From contig NZ_JFYN01000005.1 of assembly GCF_000631985.1 (NCBI RefSeq), positions 232,332-296,331 of the forward strand: a stretch of DNA of 64,000 nucleotides, in the 5' to 3' direction. The notes below the pieces were generated by a model. The model was not told the origin of the DNA, searched no databases, and saw only the letters and a program-made list of their open reading frames with translations. Within the stretch, counting starts at the first letter, position 1, and each line of letters begins with the position of its first letter. This document shows, one piece after another, positions 3,108 through 16,638 of the stretch. The position numbers and the translations under genes were made by a program. Source of the DNA: Pseudomonas sp. RIT288 (lineage in GTDB: Bacteria > Pseudomonadota > Gammaproteobacteria > Pseudomonadales > Pseudomonadaceae).

Positions 3108-4075
3108 CCGATGTAGGCACTCACCACATCGATGCGGTTATGTCCCAACTCGTGGCTGATCTGCTTACGGGCTCGCTGATCAAGTGCTCGATCCTCTTGA
3201 TGAACACGACCACCATTAACGGGTGCAGGAAAGCCGATTAGTTGCTCATAGCGCTCACAGGCGTAGGCCGCCCGCAGCTCATGAAAACCTTTCAATCCAT
3301 ACTCATGCAGGATGTCCCGTGCCGGTCGCACAACTGCCTGCATAAAGTCTTTATAGCTTTCGTCGGGCGCCAACAAATTCCGGCTGCCATTGGGTGAGGT
3401 CGCGCTGGCCCAATCCAGGGCATCGCGAACTTGATCCGTTGCCGTAATCCAGCGCGGTGCCGAGGCCCCTGATCGACCACCTTTGGTGCCATCCTGGATG
3501 TTGATCTTGCCCAGTTGCCGAACCTCACGTTGCAGTCGGGGCAGATCGGCCAGAATCGCTTCGCGCAGGCGCATACCAGTCTCACGGGCGAGGAGCACAA
3601 TGGCACTCACCCTCGATTGCTGACGATCTGACAGCGCCCGCGCGATCAACTCGACCTGCGCACGTTCTTGGCCTTGCGGAGCCTCACTACGCACGCTTGA
3701 GCGCTGCAAGCCCAGCGCCTTACTCGGACTCGGGATTTTGACGTACTGATCACCGCGTAGCGCGGCCATCGTTCGGTTCACGCTGGACAGTCGGTTCTGC
3801 GCGGTGGCAATGCCGACGTTGCCCTGATCAACCTGCTCCCGCACGTGGACGGCGTACCGCATGAGGATCTCGCGGTCTATCTGGCGCGCGTCGTTGACCC
3901 TCGGTCCTTCATCGGAGCGACACCAATGCACGAACGCCTGCCAGCGATCACTATGGGCTTTGACGGTAGCAAAATGGCCGTCGCCGAACAGGTCTTTCAG
4001 TGCTTGCGGTCCAGCATAGCTAAGCTGGCGACCGAAGCCGAAATTGCGCCCCGCTCGCTTACCGACCCGAGCCAT
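3095..4075 (-). CDS. Second tyrosine recombinase (integrase-domain protein)
   Basis: A 326-residue protein of the integrase-domain family often found as an extra recombinase in Pseudomonas islands. The start at 4075 (MARVGKRAGRNFGFG) has AGGAA 8 bp upstream; a longer frame from 4132 lacks a ribosome site. An N-terminal core-binding part (about 25-135) precedes a catalytic part with Arg in RETGMRLREAI, His-x-x-Arg in FHELRAAY, and HELGHNRIDVVSAYIG near the C-terminus carrying the second His and the Tyr. All catalytic residues appear present. The gene overlaps the 3' end of the upstream gene (4059) by 17 bp and reads as one unit with the genes up to 5796. Its role beside the main integrase is unknown. 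Confidence 0.85.
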   Translation of the reverse strand: MARVGKRAGRNFGFGRQLSYAGPQALKDLFGDGHFATVKAHSDRWQAFVHWCRSDEGPRVNDARQIDREILMRYAVHVREQVDQGNVGIATAQNRLSSVNRTMAALRGDQYVKIPSPSKALGLQRSSVRSEAPQGQERAQVELIARALSDRQQSRVSAIVLLARETGMRLREAILADLPRLQREVRQLGKINIQDGTKGGRSGASAPRWITATDQVRDALDWASATSPNGSRNLLAPDESYKDFMQAVVRPARDILHEYGLKGFHELRAAYACERYEQLIGFPAPVNGGRVHQEDRALDQRARKQISHELGHNRIDVVSAYIGCRR

Positions 4076-4403
4076 TTTTCTGTTCCTGATCAACTGCCGC
4101 GAGATCATGCAAAAGGGCTCGCCAGTGCGCACTTACAATCGCGAACTGAGCCCAATCAGTCGGGCGAAAACACAGCGTGTTGTCGGTGACGTAAAGATGC
4201 GCACCCTCCTCTTTCAACCATTGAATAATGGCTGTCGTAGAGGCGATAGCTTTATGGGTGGTGGCGACAGCGGCGACAACCCTTGTCCTGCCTGGGTTTG
4301 AGCGTGGCGACAAAGTGGCGACAGTAGCGGCGACAAATCGCGCTTTGGGCTCCTTTTGACGCTGAGCCAGATGGTTGCGCAGCGCTTCATCAAGATTAAA
4401 CAT
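4059..4403 (-). CDS. Hypothetical protein of the island mobility block
   Basis: About 114 residues, starting at 4403 where GAGGTG lies upstream; it overlaps the stop of the DUF3987 gene by 8 bp and runs 17 bp into the recombinase gene, so it is translationally coupled to both. The C-terminal two thirds (IIQWLKEEGAHLYVTDNTLC, then FAIVSAHWRALLHDL) look like a compact helical domain with a short beta hairpin. The N-terminal third is low complexity (Ala-Thr-Val repeats) because it is encoded by the GGCGACA array. No named family is recognised. Confidence 0.6.
   Translation of the reverse strand: MFNLDEALRNHLAQRQKEPKARFVAATVATLSPRSNPGRTRVVAAVATTHKAIASTTAIIQWLKEEGAHLYVTDNTLCFRPTDWAQFAIVSAHWRALLHDLAAVDQEQKNGSGR
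4263..4335. repeat. GGCGACA array 1 (five copies)
   Basis: GGCGACA occurs at 4263, 4272, 4306, 4317 and 4329 on the plus strand, spaced 9, 34, 11 and 12 bp. It lies inside the coding sequence of the 4059-4403 gene. A related array in inverted orientation is at 6543-6621. It could be an iteron-like binding array or simply a low-complexity coding stretch. Confidence 0.55.
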
Positions 4404-5796
4404 GGCGCACCTCGAAGGTGTGGCCATCGGTGATCAACCACTGATGATCAATCAACTCGACCAGCAGCTTGGCGGCATGACGACTGCTCTTGCGGGCAAA
4501 GCGGGGACCGTTGCGATTCAATTCACGAATACTGAAACGCTTCCAATCTTTGACCTGTAGCCATCGCAGCAGCCGGTCTGCCTCCTCTTTTACTCGACAC
4601 ACTGGCTCCTGCTCAGTCAGGCGCTGGATCTCGGTGAGGTAGTAGCCGACTAAAGCGGAGGCCCGTTGGATATGGTCGACCTCCACGACGCTGCTCTCCT
4701 CCACAACTGCAAGAATGCCAGCGACGCGCAGCAGGTTATCGGCGGCCTTTGATCCGCTGGGCCGTACGCTGGCCAGTTCGCCAAACTCCCCCAGCTGAGC
4801 TTCGATAGCATCATGCAAATCAATCCAGCGACGACGCGCCAGCTGACTGAGGCTCAGCATTGACAGCTGCAAGGCACCGTCAGCGGAAAGTGACCACGGC
4901 TGATAAAACAGAGCCGAAAGGCGGTGATGATAGCGCTTTAGGGCGGCGTCTTTGGACAAATCGACAGCCTGGTAGCTGCGTTGTCCGGCCAGGCTAATGG
5001 GCCAGGTCACCAAGCAGCGCCCTAGAATCCCTTGCCCCTGCAGCAACGGGTCACTGAGTAACTGCATAGCCAAGTACGGTTGCAGCATTAGGTGCAGGCT
5101 CAAGCGTCGGTCGTAGGCTCGCAAGCTTTCACCAACCATGGAGCGCGCACGATCTATCGGACTGCCATCCCAGAGTGACGACAAGGTCGTAACCGCTTTC
5201 AAACGGTTATCCCGACTCATGGTGCTACTACCGAGGAATTGTCCGCCCTCGTCACAGAACAGTCCCATGCTCGGCAAGTCATGACAGAGCCCTTTGATCA
5301 GGGCCTCGATAGTCGGGTCCGTGGTGATCAGCCGAGGGGCCGAAGGCTCCGCTTCGAGCGGTGCGCTTTTTGTGGGGGCGGGATCGGCAGGATTGATACG
5401 CTGCGCCTGTCGCTGTGCGGCACGGTAACGGACAAGTTGTTCGCGATAGCGCTGCCACTGCTCACGCTCCCATTGCCGTGCTGGCAGCAATGCACATCGG
5501 TCTGCTGCGGTCTTGCGATCACCAGATGCGGCCACTGTGATCAGGTACAGCGACAGCGGATAGTTTCTCCCGTCGAGCTGTAAGCCTGCATGACCTTGGG
5601 TGGCCAGTGCCGAGGCGGACAATACCGATTGCGCGGCCAGTGCCCGGGGCACGCCGATGACCTCGGCCATGCGCTCAACCGCGGGCCCAAGAATTCCACC
5701 CAGTGCCTGGACAGGATAGGGCTCAGCCACAGGCTTCGCCTCGATTAACGGTCGGGGGGACCGTGGGAGTTCAAGCTTCGGATCTAACTGCTGCAT
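4396..5796 (-). CDS. DUF3987 (YfjI-like) P-loop protein
   Basis: A 466-residue protein of the DUF3987/YfjI family that is common in integrative elements and satellites, next to integrases and primases. The P-loop-like segment AASGDRKTAADR is near residue 90, where the family usually has SGERKS. A middle acidic box (LFCDEGGQFLG) is the likely Walker B region, followed by the helical family core (ILGRCLVTWP, then RRWIDLHDAIE). The C-terminus (WKRFSIRELNRNGPR onward) resembles a winged helix. The start has GAGGAGAGGG upstream. It heads the minus-strand block DUF3987 - small protein - recombinase - small protein. A role in element replication or helicase loading is plausible but unproven. Confidence 0.85.
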   Translation of the reverse strand: MQQLDPKLELPRSPRPLIEAKPVAEPYPVQALGGILGPAVERMAEVIGVPRALAAQSVLSASALATQGHAGLQLDGRNYPLSLYLITVAASGDRKTAADRCALLPARQWEREQWQRYREQLVRYRAAQRQAQRINPADPAPTKSAPLEAEPSAPRLITTDPTIEALIKGLCHDLPSMGLFCDEGGQFLGSSTMSRDNRLKAVTTLSSLWDGSPIDRARSMVGESLRAYDRRLSLHLMLQPYLAMQLLSDPLLQGQGILGRCLVTWPISLAGQRSYQAVDLSKDAALKRYHHRLSALFYQPWSLSADGALQLSMLSLSQLARRRWIDLHDAIEAQLGEFGELASVRPSGSKAADNLLRVAGILAVVEESSVVEVDHIQRASALVGYYLTEIQRLTEQEPVCRVKEEADRLLRWLQVKDWKRFSIRELNRNGPRFARKSSRHAAKLLVELIDHQWLITDGHTFEVRHV

Positions 5797-6251: not shown

Positions 6252-6542
6252 GCAGTCTGGCGCAGCGAATCACGTCGAGAGGTGAGGTTGCTGCAACGCA
6301 GCGAGGTAGGTCCATCGTCTGCCGCAGTGGACAGATCAGTCGAGTAGGCATCCATCACTCTTGGGGAGTGACCGTGCGAGCCGCCGGACGCTAATCGCAC
6401 TTTGAGATAACCACCACGCAAGTGGCGTAGCCTTGAAGGTTCTGGCTACCTGGGCTGGTGCTGTCAACGACAGCGGTCCGTGCGTCAATTGTTATACCCA
6501 CTCGAAAAGACGGTCAAGCATCACAGTCAAAGCGCTCAGAAA

Positions 6543-7422: not shown

Positions 7423-8577
7423 ATGCATATCGTGGGCGGTCTTTACCGAGAGTTATGCGATATACCATTCTGGGACGCCACGATGGGTTCGGGAGGCCGC
7501 GCGGCGATGGCCATGATCGACCTATCACCAGGCTCTGAATTTCATACCTACGCCTCCCCCGCCGACGATGCTGCAATTCTGGCGCTTCAAAGCAGGGGGG
7601 TGGTTGCCACCACTGTTGCCCGTCCCTCGTCGATCGTCTTTGCCTATTTTCATCCTTTATCTTCTCCCCACGTCGAGCCGCCGCGAGAGGCCCTTAGTCG
7701 CCTGCCGGCATTGCAAGTGACAGGTGAAGCGGTGTTGCGATTCGGTTTTTTGGAGGGCGATGCAATCGTCACAGCCGACCGTGCTGTTTATGATCCACAG
7801 ACATGGCGTAACCCACAGCCGTTTTCAGCAAATGGCTCGACTGCGGACGAATTAGCGCTGGTGCTCAACGAGCTTGAACTCCGTGAAGCTGCAGGCATGT
7901 ACAACCTTGATCAAGCCGCACTTTGCCTGATAAACAAGGCGGGCGCTCAGGTGGTTGTTGTTAAAAGAGGGGCTTGCGGTGCGTCGGTCTATGACGCCGC
8001 GGGAAACGTCTCCCACGTGCCGGCTTACCGCTCAAGCAAGATTTTTAAAATCGGTACGGGAGACATTTTCAGTGCGGTATTTGCGGTGTATTGGGCGGAA
8101 AGAAAAATGCCTGCCGCCCAAGCTGCTGACTTAGCGTCGCGGTCAGTCTCGCTTTACTGTGAAACGCGCACATTTAAGTTTGACCCTCTTTCCCTTTCTC
8201 AGCGTCACCCCGTTGCTGCGAGAGTGGGGGCACGAATTTGTATTGAGGGGAGTACCGAGTCCATCGGCCAACGTTACACCCTGGAAGAAGCCCGTTTTGC
8301 CTTGCGCGAACTGGGAATGGAAGTGATGAACCCAGAAACGGAGCAAGAAGCCGGCGCTTGGAGCGCGGATGCCACGCTCGTCATTGATGATGGCCTATCC
8401 CCACAGGCGTTGATTCGAATTCGGAAACATCAGGTGCAAGGAAGGCCTGTCGTCGTGCTGCACGAGCGATCAAATACGACAATCTCGCTGAGCACGGATA
8501 TTGAGACAACCGATGACTTCGCATCAGCCATCTACCTTGCAGCTTGGGCGGCAGGTGAAAGCGTAGCCTTGAGCTGA
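7423..8577 (+). CDS. PfkB/ribokinase-like kinase with C-terminal Rossmann-like domain
   Basis: First gene of the deazaguanine/TIR operon, 384 residues. The start at 7423 (MHIVGGLYRELCD) begins with the beta strand typical of ribokinases; a TTG at 7402 is an alternative. Ribokinase-fold features: VGG at the start, NELELREAAG (the NExE-type motif), VVVKRGACGA, and GTGDIFSAVF with Asp214 as likely catalytic base. These suggest phosphorylation of a sugar or nucleoside. From about residue 270 a second domain (ARICIEGSTESIGQRYTLEE, then SADATLVIDDGLS) looks like the small alpha/beta fold of nucleoside deoxyribosyltransferases, without a clear catalytic Glu. The substrate is unknown; the QueC and transglycosylase-like genes downstream suggest a nucleoside or ribosyl compound. 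A 68-bp gap separates it from the next gene. Confidence 0.75.
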   Translation: MHIVGGLYRELCDIPFWDATMGSGGRAAMAMIDLSPGSEFHTYASPADDAAILALQSRGVVATTVARPSSIVFAYFHPLSSPHVEPPREALSRLPALQVTGEAVLRFGFLEGDAIVTADRAVYDPQTWRNPQPFSANGSTADELALVLNELELREAAGMYNLDQAALCLINKAGAQVVVVKRGACGASVYDAAGNVSHVPAYRSSKIFKIGTGDIFSAVFAVYWAERKMPAAQAADLASRSVSLYCETRTFKFDPLSLSQRHPVAARVGARICIEGSTESIGQRYTLEEARFALRELGMEVMNPETEQEAGAWSADATLVIDDGLSPQALIRIRKHQVQGRPVVVLHERSNTTISLSTDIETTDDFASAIYLAAWAAGESVALS

Positions 8578-8645
8578 TCACAACAATAAATGGCATCGCC
8601 CTAGGGTTGTGCAATGGAATGTAACCAGTGAGGCCCGACCAACCC

Positions 8646-10031
8646 ATGGCGGACATTTACATCATTTATGCCAAGGAAAACCGTGACACTGCGGTGAAGA
8701 TTCGAGACCTCCTCTTGTCCTCGTGGAGTGTCTGGTTGGACGACCTTATCGTTGGCGATTTCGACTCAGTCATAAAAGAGAACATTCAAAGTACGAGATG
8801 CGTAATCGCGCTGTATTCATCCTTCGCGAGTAAACCTGCCGTGAAGGGGGAACTCAGCCTTGCGGGTAAATACGGCAAAAAGGTCATTCCATTGATTCTG
8901 GATGACAGCGATCCGCCTTATCCGTATGGACACTTCAGCAGCGTTGATTTCCGCGCATGGCAAGGAGACGTAGATGCAGAAGCAGTGAAAATGCTGCAGG
9001 TGAAGATCGGCGAAGTCGTCAAACCTCGATGCCCGCCGACTCGGCTTGAGGCAGTTCATAACGGACTGTTGCCAATTCCGAACGTGTTCATGTCTGTTTC
9101 ATCTCATGAGACCCAGTTCACACCCGCCGCGGCACTGAGCGTATTGAAGGCACACAACACTGGGTCAATCCTGGTGTCTGCATACGATCTGGTGAAATCC
9201 AAAGAGCGCAAAAAGATGGTCAAGGAAATTCAGGCCTATCGCAGGCAAGGTGGGTTCGTCCTGATTGATTCTGGGAACTATGAAGCCGATCGCATGGACG
9301 ACAAGGATTGGACGCCCGCTCACTTCAAGGAGGCTTTGCTGGGGACACCGCATGACTGGGCGTTTTGCTTTGATAAAATGACGCCGAATAAGAATCCGGA
9401 CAAAGCAGTTGAAGAGGTTGTTCGGGCAGTCAGACGAGATTCCAAGCATACCCAGGCCCCTGTACTGCCCATCGTCCATGTGTCGCAAGATGAACCCGGT
9501 TTAGCGCGCCTGCCTCAAATAGTGCGAGGCGTCTCCGAACAGCTCCGCCCTCCGGTTATCGCGATTGCTGAAAGGGAACTGGGGGCAGGTCTGGCGCTTC
9601 GGGCAAAAACGATGAAACGAGTAAGGACGGAACTCGACAAGCTGCCTTACTACCAGCCCATCCATCTGCTGGGCACCGGAAACCCATGGAGCATTGCAGT
9701 GCTGGTAGCTGCGGGAGCCGACACCTTTGACGGGCTGGAATGGTGCCGATTTTCCATCGACCCCAGACGGGGCCGCCTTCATCACTTCCAACATTTTGAC
9801 TTTTTCAAGAATTCTGGGGACCGCACACCGTTTCTCGACATCGTGGACGCCAACCCTGATATTGAGTATGCGGGCCGGGTCGCCCTGTATAATCTCGAGT
9901 ACTATGAAGAGTTTGGGCACATGATGCGTTCCATGATTGCAACTAAGGACGCCGAACTTTTCGCGACAGGCATCGTGCGAATGTTTAACGCCCAAGAGCT
10001 AAGAAAGCTCTTCCCGGAGATATTTCCATGA
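8646..10031 (+). CDS. TIR domain fused to a tRNA-guanine transglycosylase-like domain
   Basis: A 461-residue two-domain protein. Residues about 1-105 are a TIR domain (IYIIYAKENRDTAVKIRD, VWLDDLIVGD, then VKGELSLAG with Glu69 where NAD-cleaving TIRs have their catalytic Glu). The rest resembles transglycosylases of the TGT/DpdA superfamily, which exchange guanine for a 7-deazaguanine: FVLIDSGNYE matches the TGT DSGG segment (Asp208), and LLGTGNPWSIAVLVAAGADT plus FDGLEWCR matches the family's GvG...GvDmFDcv segment, with Asp362 at the nucleophile position. The cysteine zinc site of bacterial TGT is not visible, as in some DNA-acting relatives. Start at 8646; GTG at 8628 is an alternative. It overlaps the next gene by ATGA. 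TIR-TGT fusion is unusual; whether it acts on DNA, RNA or a nucleotide is unknown. Confidence 0.8.
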   Translation: MADIYIIYAKENRDTAVKIRDLLLSSWSVWLDDLIVGDFDSVIKENIQSTRCVIALYSSFASKPAVKGELSLAGKYGKKVIPLILDDSDPPYPYGHFSSVDFRAWQGDVDAEAVKMLQVKIGEVVKPRCPPTRLEAVHNGLLPIPNVFMSVSSHETQFTPAAALSVLKAHNTGSILVSAYDLVKSKERKKMVKEIQAYRRQGGFVLIDSGNYEADRMDDKDWTPAHFKEALLGTPHDWAFCFDKMTPNKNPDKAVEEVVRAVRRDSKHTQAPVLPIVHVSQDEPGLARLPQIVRGVSEQLRPPVIAIAERELGAGLALRAKTMKRVRTELDKLPYYQPIHLLGTGNPWSIAVLVAAGADTFDGLEWCRFSIDPRRGRLHHFQHFDFFKNSGDRTPFLDIVDANPDIEYAGRVALYNLEYYEEFGHMMRSMIATKDAELFATGIVRMFNAQELRKLFPEIFP

Positions 10032-10726
10032 CCAGCTATAGCGCCGAGGCGCTGTCTAGAGCGGTAGCCGCGGTCTGCCCTGACATCCGCTTGCGCATTG
10101 AGGAAGGTGTAGTGTCAGACGAACACCACCTTTGGTGGGAGTTGTCATGCTGCATCCTGAGCAGCCAGGTACCCTACCCGCTCGCCATGGCGGCAGCAGA
10201 CGCAATCGACGCGCGCGGATTTCTTCATAAAACTGAAGGAAATCAGGAAGACCTCGCCGAGCGTTTGTTTGAGGTACTGAGTACCCCTCTGGATGTAGAA
10301 GGCAAAAAACGCAGCTACAGGTTCCCCAAAGCCAAAGCCGGTCACCTGGCATCGACTTGGGCTGCGGTAGCAGGCACTGGCGGCTCCCTGAAAGCCTTGA
10401 TCAGCAGGGACGTTAACGACGTACGGGCATGGCTGGTTGCTCACGCCTGCGGCATTGGGCCTAAGCAAGCAAGCATGTTCTTGCGCAACTGCGGAGTCAC
10501 TTATGACTTGGCAATCCTGGATCGGCATGTTCTCAATTACATGTCTGCACAAGGCATTTACTCAGGCGCTCAAACGTCCATTTCTGGGCTGAGCCAGTAC
10601 GGTCGTCATGAACAGCGACTGCGCGACCACGCGCGGGAGATGGACTGTCCGGTTGGGCTGCTCGATTGGGCAATATGGATCGTCATGCGCGTCGCGAACC
10701 GCAAGCAGGAGGCTGTTTTAGTATGA
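10028..10726 (+). CDS. HhH DNA glycosylase/AP lyase, Ogg2-like
   Basis: A 232-residue protein with the helix-hairpin-helix motif and catalytic pair of archaeal-type 8-oxoguanine glycosylases (Ogg2): GIGPKQASMFLRNCG with Lys146, then LAILDRHVLNYM with Asp165. In that family Lys attacks C1' of the damaged base and Asp assists, giving base excision and strand nicking. The N-terminal helices (WWELSCCILSSQVPYPLAM) fit the HhH-GPD fold. The start ATG at 10028 overlaps the TIR-TGT stop (ATGA), and the stop overlaps the queC start (ATGA). In this operon the substrate may be a deazaguanine or displaced base rather than 8-oxoG; that is inference. Confidence 0.82.
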   Translation: MTSYSAEALSRAVAAVCPDIRLRIEEGVVSDEHHLWWELSCCILSSQVPYPLAMAAADAIDARGFLHKTEGNQEDLAERLFEVLSTPLDVEGKKRSYRFPKAKAGHLASTWAAVAGTGGSLKALISRDVNDVRAWLVAHACGIGPKQASMFLRNCGVTYDLAILDRHVLNYMSAQGIYSGAQTSISGLSQYGRHEQRLRDHAREMDCPVGLLDWAIWIVMRVANRKQEAVLV

Positions 10727-11316
10727 GCATCGTGACACTCGTTTCCGGGGGCCTGGACTCCACACTGGTCGCAAAACTGGCGATTGAAGAAGGCCTGCGA
10801 ATTTATCCGCTCTTCGTTGATTACGGCCAGCGGGCACGTGAGAGGGAGCTAGCTGCCTGCAGGCTGGCCATGAAGAAACTCGGCCTCCCCGAGCCCGAGA
10901 TCGCCGATTTGTCGGGGTTCGGGAAATTGATACGTTCAGGGCTTACGGATCCGAATCTCCACATCATCGAAGACGCCTTCACACCTGGTCGAAATATGCT
11001 TTTCCTGCTGATTGCGGCTGCATATGCCCATCAGAAAAATGCAGATGCCATTTCAATAGGCCTGCTTCATGAAAGCACTAGCTTATTCCCTGATCAGACC
11101 TCTGGATTCCTGGCCGAGGCTGAGCGCATGATATGTCTTTGCATGGGCAAACAGATCAAGGTACTCGCCCCGCTGGCGCTGTTCACAAAACCTGATGTCG
11201 TTGTATTGGCAGCCGAAAAGGGTATTACGCAGACCTACTCCTGCCATCTGGGTGAGGAAGAGGCATGTGGTAACTGCATCGCCTGCAACGAATTCAAATT
11301 TGAGGAAAACCAGTAA
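10723..11316 (+). CDS. queC: 7-cyano-7-deazaguanine synthase-like protein (QueC)
   Basis: A 197-residue QueC-family protein. QueC makes preQ0 from 7-carboxy-7-deazaguanine with ATP and ammonia, the precursor of queuosine, archaeosine and DNA deazaguanines. The start at 10723 has GCAGGAGG upstream. The N-terminal PP-loop VSGGLDST (Ser8-Ser13) binds ATP; FVDYGQRARERE follows; the C-terminal zinc site is Cys174, Cys182, Cys185, Cys188 (CHLGEEEACGNCIAC). It is slightly short for a housekeeping QueC but keeps the key residues. No queD, queE or folE lies nearby, so substrate would come from the host's queuosine pathway. ATGA and TAATG overlaps tie it to both neighbours. It could instead catalyse a related adenylation/amidation, as some defence QueC paralogues do. 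Confidence 0.88.
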   Translation: MSIVTLVSGGLDSTLVAKLAIEEGLRIYPLFVDYGQRARERELAACRLAMKKLGLPEPEIADLSGFGKLIRSGLTDPNLHIIEDAFTPGRNMLFLLIAAAYAHQKNADAISIGLLHESTSLFPDQTSGFLAEAERMICLCMGKQIKVLAPLALFTKPDVVVLAAEKGITQTYSCHLGEEEACGNCIACNEFKFEENQ

Positions 11317-11783
11317 TGGGCGGAAGCAGCTCAGGTGGATGGAGCCGACTCGGCGATGTTAAATCGCTGGAGCAGAAAGCCAAAGCAGCGCTCAACGAGG
11401 GCAAGCGCAACGTATTCATCAGTTTCGCGACTGAGGATATGAATGAGGTCAATCTGCTACGAGCTCAGGCGAAAAATGACAATAATGATATCGAGTTCAA
11501 CGACCACTCCGTGCGTGAGCCCTACGACAGCGTTCAGGCCGAGTACATCAAGCGCAAAATTTCCGAACGCATCAACCGCGCCTCGGTGACTGTTGTCTAT
11601 ATCTCCGACGACACTTCTCAGAGTAAATGGGTTAAATGGGAGGTTGAGAAGAGCCTTGAGCTTGGAAAGAAAGTGGTGGCGGTGCACTCGGGTAGTCGGT
11701 TCAACGGAACCGAACCCAAGTGGATCTCAGACCATGGGATCAAGACTGTTGCCTGGTCGAAACTCGCTGACGAGCTCAAGTAG
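11316..11783 (+). CDS. ThsB-like (MTH538-type) TIR protein
   Basis: A 155-residue protein with a Gly/Ser-rich leader (MGGSSSGGW) and a TIR domain of the MTH538/ThsB type: RNVFISFATED, IEFNDHSVREP, VTVVYISDDTSQSKWV, then KWEVEKSLELGKK with Glu109 in the expected catalytic position. ThsB proteins in Thoeris sense phage and make an NAD-derived signal; here the partner is unknown. The ATG overlaps the queC stop (TAATG), so it is the last gene of the five-gene operon. It faces a convergent operon that encodes another TIR of the same class and a SLATT membrane protein, so cross-talk is possible. Confidence 0.85.
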   Translation: MGGSSSGGWSRLGDVKSLEQKAKAALNEGKRNVFISFATEDMNEVNLLRAQAKNDNNDIEFNDHSVREPYDSVQAEYIKRKISERINRASVTVVYISDDTSQSKWVKWEVEKSLELGKKVVAVHSGSRFNGTEPKWISDHGIKTVAWSKLADELK

Positions 11784-11855: not shown

Positions 11856-12719
11856 TCAGTTGTCCTTGCGCGCTTCCCACTGGGTATGTTCCCGCGAAAA
11901 GGCATTCTCAGCGTCGCCCACAAATTTCGACAAATCGTCATCTGCGACTAGCTCTTGCGCTTGCTCTCGGATGAGGGTGATTTCATGCGCCGTAAGAGCA
12001 TAAGAGGCAGAGAGTTCGGTGAAGCGCTTCGCCTGCATCCACGTCAGTAAGCTGGCTGCGACAGCTATGAACACATCGGTAGGAAAATACTGGTACTGGA
12101 CGTTGGCGACCTTAATTAACGCGCAGATGAAAGCGACCGCGTTCACCAAGATCAGGGCAGTGAAAAAATGCTTCGCCGCACGGGTGTTAAATCTTGCCTT
12201 TCGCGAATACCAATCCAACTGATCGTTGATACGAAACTCTACATACGTATCACGTCGCGAAGCGAAGTCACCGGCCCTTAGCTGCTTCATCACCGCTGTA
12301 AGTTGGTGCGCCGATAAATGACTGATCAGCTTGTCCGATACCCCCGGATTTTGCCGTACCACCTGCGTAAGCTTTTTTAAGAGGTGTTGCTTTGCAGTCT
12401 CATCGCTCTCGTGAAAAGGCTCTGCCCTAGAAACGTAGCGCCACGTTATCGTCTTGATGGACTCAGCGACTGCACGTCCAGAGTACCAAACCCGCTCCGG
12501 CCTCATGGCCGCTAGGTAAACGGAGCTGGCTAATGCCCCGGCGAGCAGCGCTGCTTGGATGGCAGCCGAGATCCAATGCGGATAATTGATAACGGACACG
12601 ACCGCAGCTGCCACCAATAACACCAGATTAACAATCAGGGCGGTTAGGAAATGCGTCTGAGCATCCCCTGAGAGCTTGTCGGCCGCTTGGTAGAGACCCG
12701 GGAAATCAGAGCTTTGCAT
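11856..12719 (-). CDS. SLATT/DUF4231 membrane protein
   Basis: A 287-residue membrane protein of the DUF4231/SLATT type, whose members are predicted pore-forming effectors of nucleotide-signal conflict systems. Two pairs of hydrophobic helices are visible: residues about 25-75 (LTALIVNLVLLVAAAVVSVI, then a second span) and about 185-235 (FFTALILVNAVAFICALIKV, then VFIAVAASLLTWMQ), separated and followed by charged helical segments. The C-terminus (LTAHEITLIREQAQELV) is coiled-coil-like. The ATG at 12719 overlaps the stop of the upstream TIR gene, so the two are translationally coupled. The likely role is membrane disruption when the TIR partner signals. Confidence 0.82.
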   Translation of the reverse strand: MQSSDFPGLYQAADKLSGDAQTHFLTALIVNLVLLVAAAVVSVINYPHWISAAIQAALLAGALASSVYLAAMRPERVWYSGRAVAESIKTITWRYVSRAEPFHESDETAKQHLLKKLTQVVRQNPGVSDKLISHLSAHQLTAVMKQLRAGDFASRRDTYVEFRINDQLDWYSRKARFNTRAAKHFFTALILVNAVAFICALIKVANVQYQYFPTDVFIAVAASLLTWMQAKRFTELSASYALTAHEITLIREQAQELVADDDLSKFVGDAENAFSREHTQWEARKDN

Positions 12720-13198
12720 CAAACGGCCTCATAACCGAGATTTTTGTAAATGCTGTCTGGGAAATGGTAATTCCCGCGCTGGCTGTTGGTAGGGTGCCCT
12801 AGCGCATGAGCAATGATAGCGGCCGAGTAAGGAACGAAGATTGCTCCGACGTCCTGCATGACGGGTGGACAGAGGTCTGCGTTCAGGTAGCGACCTCCAT
12901 CCAGGTTGACACCGATCAGATTGCACCCCTTCTCTATCGCAACTTGAATTTCCCAACGCACATATTTGTGTTTTGATCGGGTGTCTCTGCCGATCAAAAG
13001 CATGAAGGTGCCGGCCATGTCGATGCGCTCTCGGCATTTCCGTTTGATATAGTCCTCATCCTCTGACTCCAGGGCCATATTCAACTGGCAATCGGCGAAA
13101 TTGAAATCTAAATGGGTGTTCTTTCGCCATGCGCCCATCAGCTCGTACATGTGCCGATCGGTGCTGCTGAAACCCACAAATGTTCTAGGTAATCCCAT
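12719..13198 (-). CDS. ThsB-like TIR protein paired with SLATT
   Basis: A 159-residue single-domain TIR of the MTH538/ThsB type: RTFVGFSSTDRHMYEL, FNFADCQLN, DEDYIKRKCRERI, FMLLIGRDTRSKHKYV, then RWEIQVAIEKG with Glu83 as likely catalytic residue, and a C-terminal extension (ALGHPTNSQRGNYHFP). The start at 13198 has AAGGAG 6 bp upstream. It lies between the deoxyribosyltransferase-like/TPR gene and the SLATT gene on one strand. In Thoeris such a TIR makes a cyclic ADP-ribose-type signal for ThsA; ThsA is absent here and the SLATT protein takes the effector position, so this is Thoeris-like by analogy only. Confidence 0.85.
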   Translation of the reverse strand: MGLPRTFVGFSSTDRHMYELMGAWRKNTHLDFNFADCQLNMALESEDEDYIKRKCRERIDMAGTFMLLIGRDTRSKHKYVRWEIQVAIEKGCNLIGVNLDGGRYLNADLCPPVMQDVGAIFVPYSAAIIAHALGHPTNSQRGNYHFPDSIYKNLGYEAV

Positions 13199-13252
13199 TA
13201 CTTCTCCTTGATTATGTTGAGGCAACGCGCGAGCACTCGCGCACCAGCGGGC

Positions 13253-14506
13253 TCACTTTTCTGCAGGAGAGAGCGTTGCCAGCCGCTCTGGCCTGATGGC
13301 GAACAGCTCATCCTTGCCGGCCATATAGGTTTCGATTTCCCACTGTGCATCGGCTGCGCCCAAAAACTTGTGCTCGAACGCCCCGGCTTCGGTCGGATTT
13401 TCGATAGCGAAATAGCAATTGGCTAACGTAGCGTAGATCCAACGCTTGTCTGGGCGATCGAAGAAGTCCGAGGAGTCCAATAGGGGCAGCAGTGACTTCA
13501 CAATCATCTGGCGAATTTTATGGGCGCACATGAAGTCGAACACCTTTTCAGAGTGTTCTGCCTGAACCTGGGCACGAAACTCGAAGCACAGCGCTAGGTT
13601 TTCACCATTGTAATAGTCGCGTTTCACCTCAAATCCGCGTCGATAAAACTGGATCGCTGCATCGAGCGACTCACGGTCGCCTTCACGCAACCAAAGTCGC
13701 TTGGTGATCGCACCGGCCACGCCCACAGTCTCGGGGTCGTTCGAGGCCTCAGGATCCAGCGAGCGGATGATTTCAAGCCCGGCGCGCAATGCCGAAGTCT
13801 CATCGGGGAGCTTTGCCTTGTACGTGGTTAATGCCAGTTTCTGCAGAATGTCAGGTTCGCCAGGCTTCATGTCCCTGGCTGCCGCGAACTCCTGGCTCGC
13901 TAGATCGTGTCTGCTTTGGCGCATGAACTTCTCACCTTCACGCATATGACGTGAAAAGCGCTGTTGTGCTTCCTCGGCTTCCCCCAGCAACTCTTCGTAT
14001 TCTTCATCGGACATTCTTGGCGATAGGAGCTTGGGGAGAAATGTGTAAACGGGGCTGTCCACGGCTTGGGCAGCCATTACAGCGTCAATGAGTTCCCCAA
14101 GATCCTTAACTGCCCTTTTGGCTTCTCGCGCCAGAATATCGTCTCCGAAGTGCTGGTACCGAAATGTGCTGACATGGTTCAGGTCAAAGTACAGCTTGCC
14201 CTGATCCTCATTCATGATGATGGTTGAGTTGGGCCTGAGTGCGTGCCGCACGCCCAGCTCATAAACGGCATTTACGTTTCCAGTAGAAATGTCGGCTATG
14301 ACCAGATCGGCCCTAAGGAGCATCTCGTACATTTTCACGTCGATGAACCCAGACTGCGTGATTTCATCGGCCCTGATACATCTCAAGCCTTGAGCAGTGA
14401 CGGCAGGCTCGATAATGGTCTCGTAAGTGGCATTCAGATCAAGCGTGCGGCCGGTTTCATATTCGGTTTTCTTGCCGAAACCCATCACGACAAAGCATAC
14501 CTTCAT
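13253..14506 (-). CDS. Nucleoside deoxyribosyltransferase-like protein with TPR-S (TRAFs-binding) region
   Basis: A 417-residue protein starting at 14506 (AGGGA upstream; longer in-frame starts lack a ribosome site). Residues 1-150 match the deoxyribosyltransferase-like fold: CFVVMGFGKKTEYETG, a strand-helix-strand, then LVIADISTGNVNAVYELGVR with Asp72 and Glu83 in the catalytic positions. Such domains hydrolyse or exchange nucleoside/nucleotide bases. Residues about 190-410 are repeat helices of the TRAFs-binding/TPR-S type known from bacterial conflict proteins (HDLASQEFAAARDMKPGEPD, then LDAAIQFYRRGFEV). First gene of the minus operon with TIR and SLATT. A sensor or signal-processing role is likely; the substrate is unknown. 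Confidence 0.78.
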   Translation of the reverse strand: MKVCFVVMGFGKKTEYETGRTLDLNATYETIIEPAVTAQGLRCIRADEITQSGFIDVKMYEMLLRADLVIADISTGNVNAVYELGVRHALRPNSTIIMNEDQGKLYFDLNHVSTFRYQHFGDDILAREAKRAVKDLGELIDAVMAAQAVDSPVYTFLPKLLSPRMSDEEYEELLGEAEEAQQRFSRHMREGEKFMRQSRHDLASQEFAAARDMKPGEPDILQKLALTTYKAKLPDETSALRAGLEIIRSLDPEASNDPETVGVAGAITKRLWLREGDRESLDAAIQFYRRGFEVKRDYYNGENLALCFEFRAQVQAEHSEKVFDFMCAHKIRQMIVKSLLPLLDSSDFFDRPDKRWIYATLANCYFAIENPTEAGAFEHKFLGAADAQWEIETYMAGKDELFAIRPERLATLSPAEK

Positions 14507-14965
14507 TAATAATCGTCCCTTGCCAGCAAAAAGTCCCAGGCAGGCTCGCAGACTGCTTGCCACCACCTTGTCGAAAACGTGCAAATACCTGCGAAAAGCA
14601 TTAAGCGCTATCAGCCGGGCTGAGAGTAGGATCCATAGATATCAAAATGCCGCCTCCCGATCCACTGCCACGCCGGAGCGTCATGACAATTACTGTCCTG
14701 AATCCCTTAGCTAAATGGTGCTGGCACCGGCCACCTTACTCTCTGCCCTCACCGCTTGAACGGCATTTCTCGACTAGGCCGAATAAATAGGGGGGGTAAT
14801 TGCGCTGACATCGTTCTATTGCCCGGCGGGACGTTCGAGGACCGTCACTACCCACGCGATGCGGAATCAAAGCTCCGCCAGACAGTAACACGCCATCATG
14901 ATTGCAGAAAGCCATCACGTGCGAGACTATTTAGCCTGACGCTTGGATCCCAGGAGATGGAAAAG
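14507..14965. promoter_or_regulatory. Divergent intergenic region between two defence operons
   Basis: 459 bp separate the minus-strand TPR/TIR/SLATT operon from the plus-strand Pycsar operon, so both promoters should lie here. Frames extending the Pycsar effector upstream to 14756 lack a ribosome site and domain similarity. I see no clear operator; a run of seven G at 14790-14796 is the most marked local oddity. Confidence 0.5.
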
Positions 14966-15868
14966 ATGTTGGATAGACTCAAAGGCTCCAGCGGCCAGCC
15001 AGAAGCGCTACGACTGCTAAAGCGCCAGGAATTGGTACAGGAAGACAGCGAGCGTGCAGGCTTCCTACTAAGCAAGGGTGAGCTCATCGAGTTTGAGCCA
15101 GACACCCACCTCATCACTTATGGTGAAGCTTCGAGCGACGTATATTTTTTGCTCTCAGGCGACGTCAGGATTCTAAAGGGTAAGCACATATTGAATGAAA
15201 GCTTTCGCGCTGGTAATTGCGTCGGTGAGATCGCAGCCATTCAAGTCGTTCTGAGGACGGCCACAGTCATCGCAAACACCAGTGTGGTGGCGCTGAAAGT
15301 GGCACGGGAAGATTTTGTGTCATTTATCGATACCTTTCCTGCCGCGAGTAAGGCACTAGCTTTTGATTTGGCGGCTCGGCTGGAACGTAGAAATGATCGA
15401 ATCGCCACGCCAGGCCGTAAGCACCGGATATTTGTGATTTCTTCCACCGAAGCGATGAGTATCGCGCTTACAGGCATACGCTTCTTCAGTCGCCATGATG
15501 AATTTGAATTTTGCCCTTGGCCGATCGAGACATTCCGGGCGTCAAGCTATCCGCTGGATGATCTAGAGGCTGAGCTAGAAACTGCGGACTTCGCTATTGC
15601 CATTGCTCAGGGCGATGACGTCACCGAATCAAGGGACTCTCGAAAGCCTAGCCCGCGAGATAACGTTCTGTTTGAACTCGGCCTTTTCATGGGTCGGCTT
15701 GGGCGCAAACGCACCCTATTGATGACTCAGGAGGGGTGTGACCTCAAGCTTCCAAGCGATCTCAGCGGGATGATGGTGGTGAAGTATTCGAAACAAATCT
15801 CAAGCACACCATCTGAGCAGCTCCAATTGTGGCAACACGCTAAGGATCATTTCGGAGCGCTTATCTAA
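14966..15868 (+). CDS. pycTIR: Pycsar effector: cyclic-nucleotide-binding domain plus TIR (PycTIR)
   Basis: A 300-residue effector. The start at 14966 is chosen because AGGAG lies 9 bp upstream; the ATG at 14957 is too close to it. Residues about 38-140 are a CRP-like cyclic-nucleotide-binding domain (ITYGEASSDVYFLLSGDVRI, VGEIAAIQVVLRTATVIA with Glu89 and Arg97 in the phosphate-binding cassette). Residues 152-275 are a TIR of the CAP12/Pycsar type: RIFVISSTEAMSIA, ADFAIAIAQGDD, then RDNVLFELGLFMGRLGR with Glu237 as NADase residue, and LPSDLSG. In Pycsar, cCMP or cUMP binding activates the TIR, which depletes NAD and stops phage growth. Its stop overlaps the cyclase start (TAATG). Confidence 0.93.
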   Translation: MLDRLKGSSGQPEALRLLKRQELVQEDSERAGFLLSKGELIEFEPDTHLITYGEASSDVYFLLSGDVRILKGKHILNESFRAGNCVGEIAAIQVVLRTATVIANTSVVALKVAREDFVSFIDTFPAASKALAFDLAARLERRNDRIATPGRKHRIFVISSTEAMSIALTGIRFFSRHDEFEFCPWPIETFRASSYPLDDLEAELETADFAIAIAQGDDVTESRDSRKPSPRDNVLFELGLFMGRLGRKRTLLMTQEGCDLKLPSDLSGMMVVKYSKQISSTPSEQLQLWQHAKDHFGALI

Positions 15869-16638
15869 TGAACCACTCTGAGTTATCTCTGGTTGAAATC
15901 GCCGCGCGCGAAGGACTGAAAGCCGCGATACAAGGTTGGGAAAAGGTCGGGCACCTCATCAGAGCAAACGAGATGTTCGAAAGCATGGGGATGGAATCCT
16001 ACGCCGCCGACAGCGCGATACCTGGCCACCCCTTTGTTGAACCGGGAAATCCAAAAGTAGATGAGTTTGTGGCGCTGGTGGTCGACATGCGCAAATCCTC
16101 AGCAAGGCTCAAGACTCATCTAAGCGGTACAAAGGTAAAAAGCGGCTTTCAGCGTATTTACTATGAAACCTCTGCCTTGCTTCCTGCGCTCGCTCAGACG
16201 GCGCTTTTCAAAAACGGCCACGTAACAGAATATCTAGGTGACGGTGTGTTGATCCTTTTCAAGGTCGACACAGACAACCGCGTCCAATCCGTGAAAGACG
16301 CTTATAACGTTGCAGCAAACTGCGTCAAAACCACTAGAAATATTGTTAACGACCTCATTCGCGAACAGTTGGATTTGCCACCATTGGATATCGGAGCGGG
16401 CCTGTCAATGAGCCAAGCTCTAGTGACGATGGTAGGCCTTCCTCCGAACCAGCAGCCGAAAGCAGTCGGAACATGCGTGTGGGAGGCATCGAAGTTGAGC
16501 GACGGAACCAACCAGGTTAACGTTGCCAAGACGTTGTATGACGCGTGGCCGTCAGAAAAAGGGGGTACCTTACGATTTGAGCCACTCAAGTCTTTGAAAC
16601 ACAACGTCGAGGGATTCAAGGTGGTAGCAGGCTCCTAA
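15868..16638 (+). CDS. pycC: Pycsar pyrimidine nucleotide cyclase (PycC)
   Basis: A 256-residue class III-type cyclase domain without membrane segments. Metal-binding Asp73 lies in VALVVDMRKSSARL and the second motif is EYLGDGVLILF with Asp125. The C-terminal half (LDIGAGLSMSQALVTMVG) is the strand-helix that follows in this family. In characterised Pycsar systems PycC makes cCMP or cUMP on phage infection; which base is used here cannot be read reliably. Immediate coupling to a cyclic-nucleotide-binding TIR effector supports the assignment over a housekeeping adenylate cyclase. It is the last island gene before the right end. Confidence 0.92.
   Translation: MNHSELSLVEIAAREGLKAAIQGWEKVGHLIRANEMFESMGMESYAADSAIPGHPFVEPGNPKVDEFVALVVDMRKSSARLKTHLSGTKVKSGFQRIYYETSALLPALAQTALFKNGHVTEYLGDGVLILFKVDTDNRVQSVKDAYNVAANCVKTTRNIVNDLIREQLDLPPLDIGAGLSMSQALVTMVGLPPNQQPKAVGTCVWEASKLSDGTNQVNVAKTLYDAWPSEKGGTLRFEPLKSLKHNVEGFKVVAGS

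Follow-up and report, generated by a model that had tools for sequence, protein, structure and literature searches.

In type IV cyclic oligonucleotide-based antiphage signalling systems (CBASS), the QueC-like protein Cap9 joins 7-carboxy-7-deazaguanine to the N-terminal glycine of a cGAS/DncV-like nucleotidyltransferase (CD-NTase) carrying the motif MGGS, and Cap10, a member of the tRNA-guanine transglycosylase (TGT) family, binds the tagged end; in the available text of the two reports, both proteins are required for defence (PMC11996544, PMC13279940). A G2D change in CBASS prevented the modification and blocked defence, according to the accessible portion of one of them (PMC13279940). The same portion describes qatABCD, in which a QueC-family protein is accompanied by a partner with an essential N-terminal MGTS tail; there the pocket of QatC is altered and its reaction is left unresolved (PMC13279940). 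We analysed a stretch of 64,000 nucleotides from Pseudomonas sp. RIT288 (contig NZ_JFYN01000005.1, positions 232,332 to 296,331 of the forward strand; hereafter the window), in which a five-gene operon at 7423-11783 combines QueC-like and TGT-like proteins with TIR domains. The operon is widely spread and is probably a TIR-based form of QueC-tagging immunity. Its QueC-like enzyme (gene 4) probably joins a 7-deazaguanine to Gly2 of a small TIR protein (gene 5), with the TGT domain of gene 2 binding the tagged end. We strongly predict that the TIR protein is tagged; what the tag is for, we infer. No description of a QueC-TIR system or of this gene set was found in the literature searched (subscription papers lay outside its reach), in line with the first-pass annotation of this DNA, which knew of no characterised system with such a set.

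All five genes lie on the plus strand, and the reading frames and domains first proposed for them were recovered by open reading frame (ORF) listing and Pfam. Gene 1 (7423-8577; 384 aa, its start inside a longer ORF) encodes a PfkB/ribokinase-fold protein (PfkB, E 1.5e-8). Gene 2 (8646-10031; 461 aa) encodes a TIR domain fused to a Cap10-like TGT domain (TIR_2, 1.9e-12; TGT, 4.3e-7). The product of gene 3 (10028-10726) is a helix-hairpin-helix DNA glycosylase/lyase of the 8-oxoguanine type (OGG; Ogg-HhH, 6.6e-25), in which Lys146 and Asp165 were conserved in 38/38 sequences; OGG is also an ancillary gene of type IV CBASS (Cap11). Gene 4 (10723-11316; 197 aa) is QueC-like (QueC, 8.6e-41) and is the predicted N-terminal tagging enzyme, and gene 5 (11316-11783) encodes a small ThsB-like TIR protein (ThsB_TIR, PF08937, 1.2e-23), the predicted tagging substrate. 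A gap of 68 bp separates genes 1 and 2, and the other three of the four junctions overlap (ATGA, ATGA and TAATG, in order), as the earlier description of mostly overlapping genes had it. Promoter and terminator scans gave no signal above that of shuffled sequences. Genes 2 and 4 matched the PADLOC models TGT and QueC, which we take to stand for type IV CBASS; Pseudanabaena Cap10 and Cap9 scored 365 and 231 bits on the same models.

The gene 5 protein begins MGGSSSGGWSRLGD, and its first 28 residues (11316-11399, plus strand) form a tail starting MGGSSSGGW, in which Gly2 is the predicted acceptor after removal of Met. Past the preceding in-frame stop, no ATG, GTG or TTG comes before the ATG at 11316, so among those start codons this N-terminus is no matter of choice. 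Among 121 gene 5 proteins (the query and the 120 matches listed, of 819), MGG stood at residue 1 in 114; in six it lay 1 to 18 residues behind an earlier annotated start, and one was annotated from inside the tail. When the window sequence was aligned with those of 36 loci (L033 left out), M1, G2 and G7 were found in 37/37 and G3 in 36/37. Conservation continued past Gly2, with W9 in 33, L12 in 35, G13 in 36, L18 in 37 and E19 in 36 of the 37, and Glu109 was invariant. An MGG tail was present on none of 18 other ThsB-type TIR proteins in the same flanks, a count from which three of 21 extra TIR-matching ORFs had been dropped (two gene fragments of L033 and one exchanger ORF of L028). The latter lies in the operon flank, at 3368-5305 of its locus, and encodes a Na+/H+ exchanger with an internal TIR domain.

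The tail was also compared with those of CD-NTases, using a profile of 112 tails made from the query and those homologues, 111 of 120, whose start fits M[GA]G (of the nine left out, five begin MGS, two begin MSGG and two are truncated). The window tail scored 12.6 bits, while none of 200 shuffles that kept MGG and composition exceeded 8.1, and the tail of L049, a variant locus, scored 23.7 bits, against at most 14.1. At most 10 of 200 shuffles reached the real score in 31 of 37 loci (L033 left out; related loci are not independent). By this sequence measure, the gene 5 tail resembles the CD-NTase tail beyond composition in those 31 loci. The tail alone, searched against PDB sequences, had no match; the gene 5 protein matched 8fz9 ('TIR') best, followed by 6lhy and ThsB1 9b7d.

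In gene 4, the SGGLDS loop, Q36/E42, R90-N91 and the cysteines C174/C182/C185/C188 were retained in 38/38 sequences, as were F122, D124 and Q125 of the pocket. The motifs SGGLDS, YxQ(x)5E, RN and C(x)7CxxCxxC agree with Cap9, for which the available text of the source gives LxSGGxDS, Y/FxQ(x)5E, RN, H(x)4YxDCxxxF, PF(x)4K and CE(x)6CxxCxxCxD (PMC13329287). In place of the remaining Cap9 motifs, gene 4 has H(x)5FPDQxxxF, PL(x)4K and CH(x)6CxxCxxCxE. The 38 system and variant QueCs fell on one side of a branch of the QueC tree (98/92), and two Cap9 proteins (100/96) and eight canonical QueCs (99/95) formed other branches; several rows of this tree have long branches, and its root serves for drawing only.

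Judged by sequence and modelled structure, the TGT domain of gene 2 is nearest to Cap10 rather than to the tRNA enzyme, with a modest structural margin. Cap10 9ntn was the only PDB sequence match of gene 2 at E <= 0.001. When its AlphaFold2 model (predicted local distance difference test, pLDDT, 88.8) was compared with 350,542 chains by Foldseek, the best match was again 9ntn, the Cap10-CdnD-NDG complex (E 6.7e-12, TM-score 0.67 by target length). Asp208 and Asp362 were present in 37/37 sequences (L006 left out), and both align with Asp residues of archaeal TGT; we take them, like Lys146 and Asp165 of gene 3, to be catalytic. Pseudanabaena Cap10, searched against 398 genomes of the host's phylum at E <= 1e-10, had a sole match, the TGT of the variant G311.

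The reference for these comparisons, a CBASS locus on a Pseudanabaena plasmid, holds Cap9-like, Cap10-like and SLATT-like genes beside a CD-NTase beginning MGGSGGGFFSNSDI / MGGSGGGFFSNSDITKELREAE. The nearest PDB chain of this CD-NTase was CdnD (E 1.7e-76), and the SLATT-like protein fell just below the Pfam cut-off (SLATT_4, E 1.8e-5); no OGG gene was found among the annotated neighbours. In the window, no CD-NTase (SMODS) was detected among 10 proteins by Pfam, PADLOC or NCBIfam. A CD-NTase profile (120 homologues, E <= 0.01) matched no ORF in the window or in 40 related loci, and gave 1.2e-153 on its positive control, L055. Membership of type IV CBASS is thus rejected, since no CD-NTase was found in the window or these loci, and that system is kept as a working model. 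The features present are a Cap10-like TGT, an OGG gene (40/40 loci) and an MGGS tail on the partner enzyme. The first-pass annotation had compared the operon with Qat and dpd and left out type IV CBASS, the home of its closest QueC and TGT relatives.

A profile search of genome contigs recovered 30 loci; its query was an alignment of gene 5 with 32 relatives, 33 sequences in all. In 30/30, all five genes were present in the same order and on the same strand. Their titles include Pseudomonas, Halomonas, Brenneria, Marinobacter, Saccharospirillum, Catenovulum, Pseudoalteromonas and Methylotenera, together with Rhizobium, Ensifer, Methylobacterium, Rhodobacter, Ruegeria and one Desulfuromonadales metagenome-assembled genome (MAG). 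With L006 and L033 aside, the lowest identities were 35% for gene 1, 36% for gene 2, 44% for gene 3, 68% for gene 4 and 62% for gene 5. Co-occurrence beyond close relatives, which had been proposed as a check, therefore holds in Gamma-, Alpha- and Betaproteobacteria and the Desulfuromonadales MAG, supporting the original proposal of a conserved immune-type operon that joins QueC and TGT with TIRs. Some copies look inactive, because gene 2 is interrupted in L006 (5398-7854) and gene 5 is frameshifted in L033 (10001-10433).

Among 72,556 plasmids, gene 5 was matched at 60% identity or more in 13 records (60 with any match). The same 13 hold gene 4 (E <= 1e-25) and gene 2 (E <= 1e-15), and gene 3 was found in those 13 and, as a 33% match, in two more; ten of the 13 come from Rhizobium and resemble one another closely. 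Of 298 genomes from the host's family (Pseudomonadaceae), three had a gene 2 match, its own genome counted; in the phylum (Pseudomonadota), there were matches in 7 of 398 genomes, two of them via the TIR domain only. G316 and G658, in which the gene 2 match came from the TIR domain alone, were dropped as relatives of the system. Gene 4 at E <= 1e-28 matched its own copy only across 369 genomes of the host's class (Gammaproteobacteria), and variant loci were therefore drawn from TGT searches. Four such loci (L046-L049) had no gene 1 match and kept the TGT, OGG, QueC and tailed TIR genes. In one of them, L049, from the host's family, a separate SLATT gene is followed by a TGT gene without TIR, OGG, QueC and a TIR gene whose product begins MGGGSGGGLFSSDI. 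The composition of these four loci defines a core of TGT, OGG, QueC and tailed TIR with an exchangeable first part. The operon is a conserved, sporadic and mobile gene set, and is likely an anti-phage system.

In the mechanism that we propose, the tagged TIR would take the place of the tagged CD-NTase of type IV CBASS. Removal of Met would expose Gly2 of gene 5; the QueC-like enzyme would use ATP to activate a 7-deazaguanine bearing a carboxyl group, which the amine of the glycine would then attack, as with Cap9 acting on the CD-NTase. The tagged tail would then dock, so that the TIR domain of gene 5 meets that of gene 2. Infection would perhaps be sensed by a TPR-S protein encoded beside the operon or by OGG acting on phage DNA, and the TIRs would consume NAD+ or make an ADP-ribose-type signal. 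A neighbouring SLATT protein, the TGT-fused TIR or the PfkB protein could be exchangeable output parts.

Several points weigh against this mechanism. The activity, oligomerisation and trigger of the TIRs are themselves predicted, and the publication on Cap9 and Cap10, available in part, could mention TIR substrates. Canonical TGTs came close behind Cap10 in Foldseek (3.5e-11), and gene 2 of the window fell short of E 1e-10 in the Pseudanabaena Cap10 search. Six of the 37 loci had more than 10 shuffles, of 200, that scored as high as the real tail, and L046, L047 and L020 showed no signal; moreover, the profile was drawn from CD-NTase homologues of the M[GA]G pattern only, and the loci compared include related ones. 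The pocket motif of gene 4 is FPDQ in 121/121 proteins (FSDQ in L048), whereas canonical QueC has YPDC and Cap9 has YxDC; the substrate could therefore be an acid other than the expected one. The supply of the base is a further difficulty. A QueE-type gene was found in 25/30 hosts at E <= 1e-8 (27/30 at E <= 0.001, two of them marginal) and QueD in 26/30, and the five hosts without clear QueE (L015, L016, L022, L032 and L033) also lacked canonical QueC. In the canonical QueC check, which covered 11 hosts, these five carried the system QueC only and the other six a canonical QueC too. In the five hosts, with neither QueE nor canonical QueC, the system may be idle, the base may be imported, the draft genomes may lack some genes, or another molecule may serve as the substrate. 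All five are alphaproteobacteria by title, and L033 is also the locus with the frameshifted gene 5.

The alternative that survives best, which we consider unlikely, keeps the same architecture and changes the chemistry: the QueC-like enzyme would put a different carboxylated molecule on the TIR glycine, or would only adenylate. The replacement of YPDC by FPDQ, the 5/30 hosts without QueE and canonical QueC, the separation of this QueC clade from both Cap9 and canonical QueC, and the precedent of QatC with its altered pocket all speak for it. On the other side, the pocket aromatic and Asp are kept (F122 and D124 in 38/38), the enzyme is partnered by a TGT-fold protein, the nearest relative of which binds an end tagged with deazaguanine, and 25/30 hosts do have a QueE-type gene.

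It is rather unlikely that the base on the TIR is, besides a docking tag, itself a substrate, such that TGT puts it in place of a guanine in phage (or tRNA) nucleic acid, planting the TIR there covalently, with OGG as the eraser. Both transglycosylase aspartates are retained and OGG is intact. If it were true, a wide immune chemistry would be common to CD-NTases, TIRs and the MSGSG-tailed small proteins of QueC cluster 4 (see below).

A tail that acts as a docking peptide only, with QueC and TGT as pseudo-enzymes that hold the TIR non-covalently, is quite improbable. Conservation of the tail past Gly2 (W9, L12, G13, L18 and E19) fits such a role. Dead scaffolds are unlikely, however, because the ATP-loop, zinc and pocket residues of QueC (38/38) and the Asp residues of TGT (37/37) are invariant, and in CBASS the G2D change that stops the modification blocks defence.

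Highly doubtful, too, is the reading of the first-pass annotation, in which the TIRs kill and the operon serves to make, insert, remove or sense 7-deazaguanine, either free or in DNA. The QueC, TGT and OGG families do act on free or nucleic-acid guanine derivatives, and the Lys/Asp pair of OGG and the Asp residues of TGT are intact here. Against this, no other base-biosynthesis gene is found among the five, the MGG tail sits on the TIR beside QueC and on 0/18 other flank TIRs, and the closest TGT is Cap10, by a modest structural margin, and not the tRNA enzyme. What stands of that reading is the combination of QueC and TGT enzymes with TIRs; a free-base or DNA-base role is not the best account of it, given the type IV CBASS relatives and the tail. 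Least of all, a metabolic (purine salvage) cluster on mobile elements with no immune role is very improbable: PfkB-deoxyribosyltransferase beside QueC is read in that way for cluster 4 in the available text of PMC13329287, but the partners here are TIR, SLATT and TPR-S proteins, and the spread is sporadic (3/298 genomes of the host's family), in integrase and plasmid settings.

Gene 1 connects the operon with that cluster. Its AlphaFold2 model (pLDDT 91.8) has a ribokinase fold over residues 1-264, the part used in the structural fold comparison, and then a further alpha/beta stretch, which agrees with the second Rossmann-like domain noted earlier. G211, G213 and D214 of the GTGD motif were conserved in 34/34 sequences. 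A nucleoside deoxyribosyltransferase domain proper was rejected, since Pfam found PF05014 in 0/25 gene 1 sequences, and is retained only as a diverged domain by homology. Gene 1 is 37% identical over its full length to the PfkB protein of L074, which bears PF05014; through this full-length PfkB-PF05014 homology, its C-terminal domain is classed as a diverged nucleoside 2-deoxyribosyltransferase-like domain.

Full-length relatives of gene 1 outside the system were found in 24 further plasmid records, 14 of which were examined (L074-L079, L081-L088). In all 14, which are QueC cluster 4 loci, PfkB adjoins QueC, and an OGG gene lies nearby in 13/14. A small protein is encoded upstream of PfkB-QueC in 13/14 (not L081), with the start MSGSG, MSGGG, MSGPG, MSGSS, MGGGS or MSSGD; two CD-NTase homologues likewise start MSGG. 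The PfkB proteins of L074 and L075 carry PF05014, and the L074 QueC matches the published cluster-4 zinc motif, although its YGQ(x)5E differs from the published YGQ(x)6E. QueC cluster 4 (Libby et al. 2026), with its PfkB-PF05014 neighbour, has been read as purine salvage, and the available part of the text makes no mention of TIR, glycosylase or TGT (PMC13329287). The cluster-4 small proteins may be further tagging substrates, and the loci possibly a second kind of N-terminal tagging system instead of purine salvage. Gene 4 was rejected as a member of cluster 4, having CH(x)6CxxCxxCxE against the cluster-4 zinc motif CH(x)5CxxCxGCxK. The hosts of the cluster-4 loci include Rhizobium, Pseudomonas, Azospirillum, Synechocystis and the archaeon Halorubrum (no OGG match), and among the neighbouring genes are those of a restriction endonuclease, a DNA adenine methylase and an anti-phage dGTPase.

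Three genes on the minus strand run convergent to the operon, from 14584 to 11856. They encode a TPR-S protein (13253-14584; PF20308), which is a candidate sensor, a second ThsB-like TIR protein with no MGG tail (12719-13225), and a SLATT_3-SLATT_1 membrane effector (11856-12722); the genes of the latter two overlap by ATGA. When partners were counted by tblastn in 40 loci (L004-L033 and L045-L054, the window not counted), TPR-S was near-constant (33/40), and SLATT (24/40) and the second TIR (20/40) were frequent. The original boundaries of the operon were hence too narrow, as all three recur with it. The TPR-S protein has an N-terminal TIR/effector-like stretch, with a PADLOC effector (TIR) match over residues 50-158. 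In L023, L026 and L047, the TPR-S match was restricted to the N-terminal part, and Pfam revealed one case missed by tblastn, near the tailed TIR of L048 (2586-4277), where TPR-S (PF20308) occurs in one protein together with a trypsin-like peptidase domain (PF13365). In the 30 host genomes, PF20308 had 32 matches at E <= 0.001, 29 of them over the cut-off. By coordinates, 30 of the 32, in 26 genomes, lay inside operon loci, against an expectation of 0.11 by length; contig identity for this placement was taken from coordinates and tblastn partner matches.

The TPR-S protein is taken as belonging to the system, and a Pycsar pair beyond it as a separate neighbour. This pair, a cNMP-binding PCTIR protein adjoining a PycC-like cyclase, lies at 14756-16638 of the window; in the 40 loci, tblastn found PycC in 0/40 and partial PycTIR in 4/40. 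The SLATT and second TIR genes (11856-13225) may form an effector pair usable alone. On the other side of the operon, the island begins right after a transfer-messenger RNA (tmRNA) gene at 831-1220, next to which stands a tyrosine integrase gene at 1276-2664, and looks as if it had been inserted at ssrA; a second copy of the ssrA end at the far island boundary was sought within the window and not found. A radC RNA motif (RF01754, 93.8 bits) lies at 6348-6491 on the minus strand, between the recombinase block and the operon.

If the predicted tagging of the TIR is true, N-terminal base tagging would be a portable licence for immune enzymes and not peculiar to one CBASS type, and the tail with its QueC/TGT/OGG module would have moved between CD-NTases and TIRs. 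The question of the tag's role would gain a second system with an unrelated signalling enzyme; because the two signalling enzymes are unrelated, features common to both systems must belong to the tag. About 40 loci are available for such a comparison. The cluster-4 loci, now read as purine salvage, would also need another look.

Compared with known systems, the operon shares with Thoeris a TIR of the ThsB family (gene 5, PF08937), and differs in that this TIR carries the tail and sits with a QueC/TGT/OGG module; no Pfam domain of a ThsA effector (SIR2-SLOG or macro-TM) was found in the 18 window proteins scanned. The dpd and related DNA 7-deazaguanine systems have QueC and TGT superfamily members in common with it, whereas the TGT of the operon is nearest to Cap10 and its five genes hold no further DNA-modification gene. 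As in qatABCD, a QueC-family protein is paired with a glycine-tailed partner. Gene 4, however, is without the QatC extensions and scored 15 bits on the QatC equivalog NF041925, against a cut-off of 280; the window proteins scanned contained neither a QatA KAP ATPase (PF07693) nor a QatD TatD protein (PF01026), and QatB is without a Pfam model. QueC cluster 4 has a PfkB protein homologous to gene 1 over its full length and an OGG gene nearby, but its QueC differs in zinc spacing and pocket, its partner candidate is a small protein with an MSGSG-type tail, and gene 2, at E <= 1e-15, was matched on the 13 system plasmids only. Type IV CBASS agrees with the operon in that QueC-like and TGT-like genes accompany a signalling enzyme whose N-terminus is a conserved MGGS tail, and the Pseudanabaena example also has a SLATT-like gene. 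In contrast to type IV CBASS, the QueC pocket of the operon reads FPDQ and not YxDC, its TGT is fused to a second TIR, PfkB and TPR-S genes are added, and its signalling enzyme is a ThsB-like TIR, so that the tail is carried by a TIR rather than a CD-NTase.

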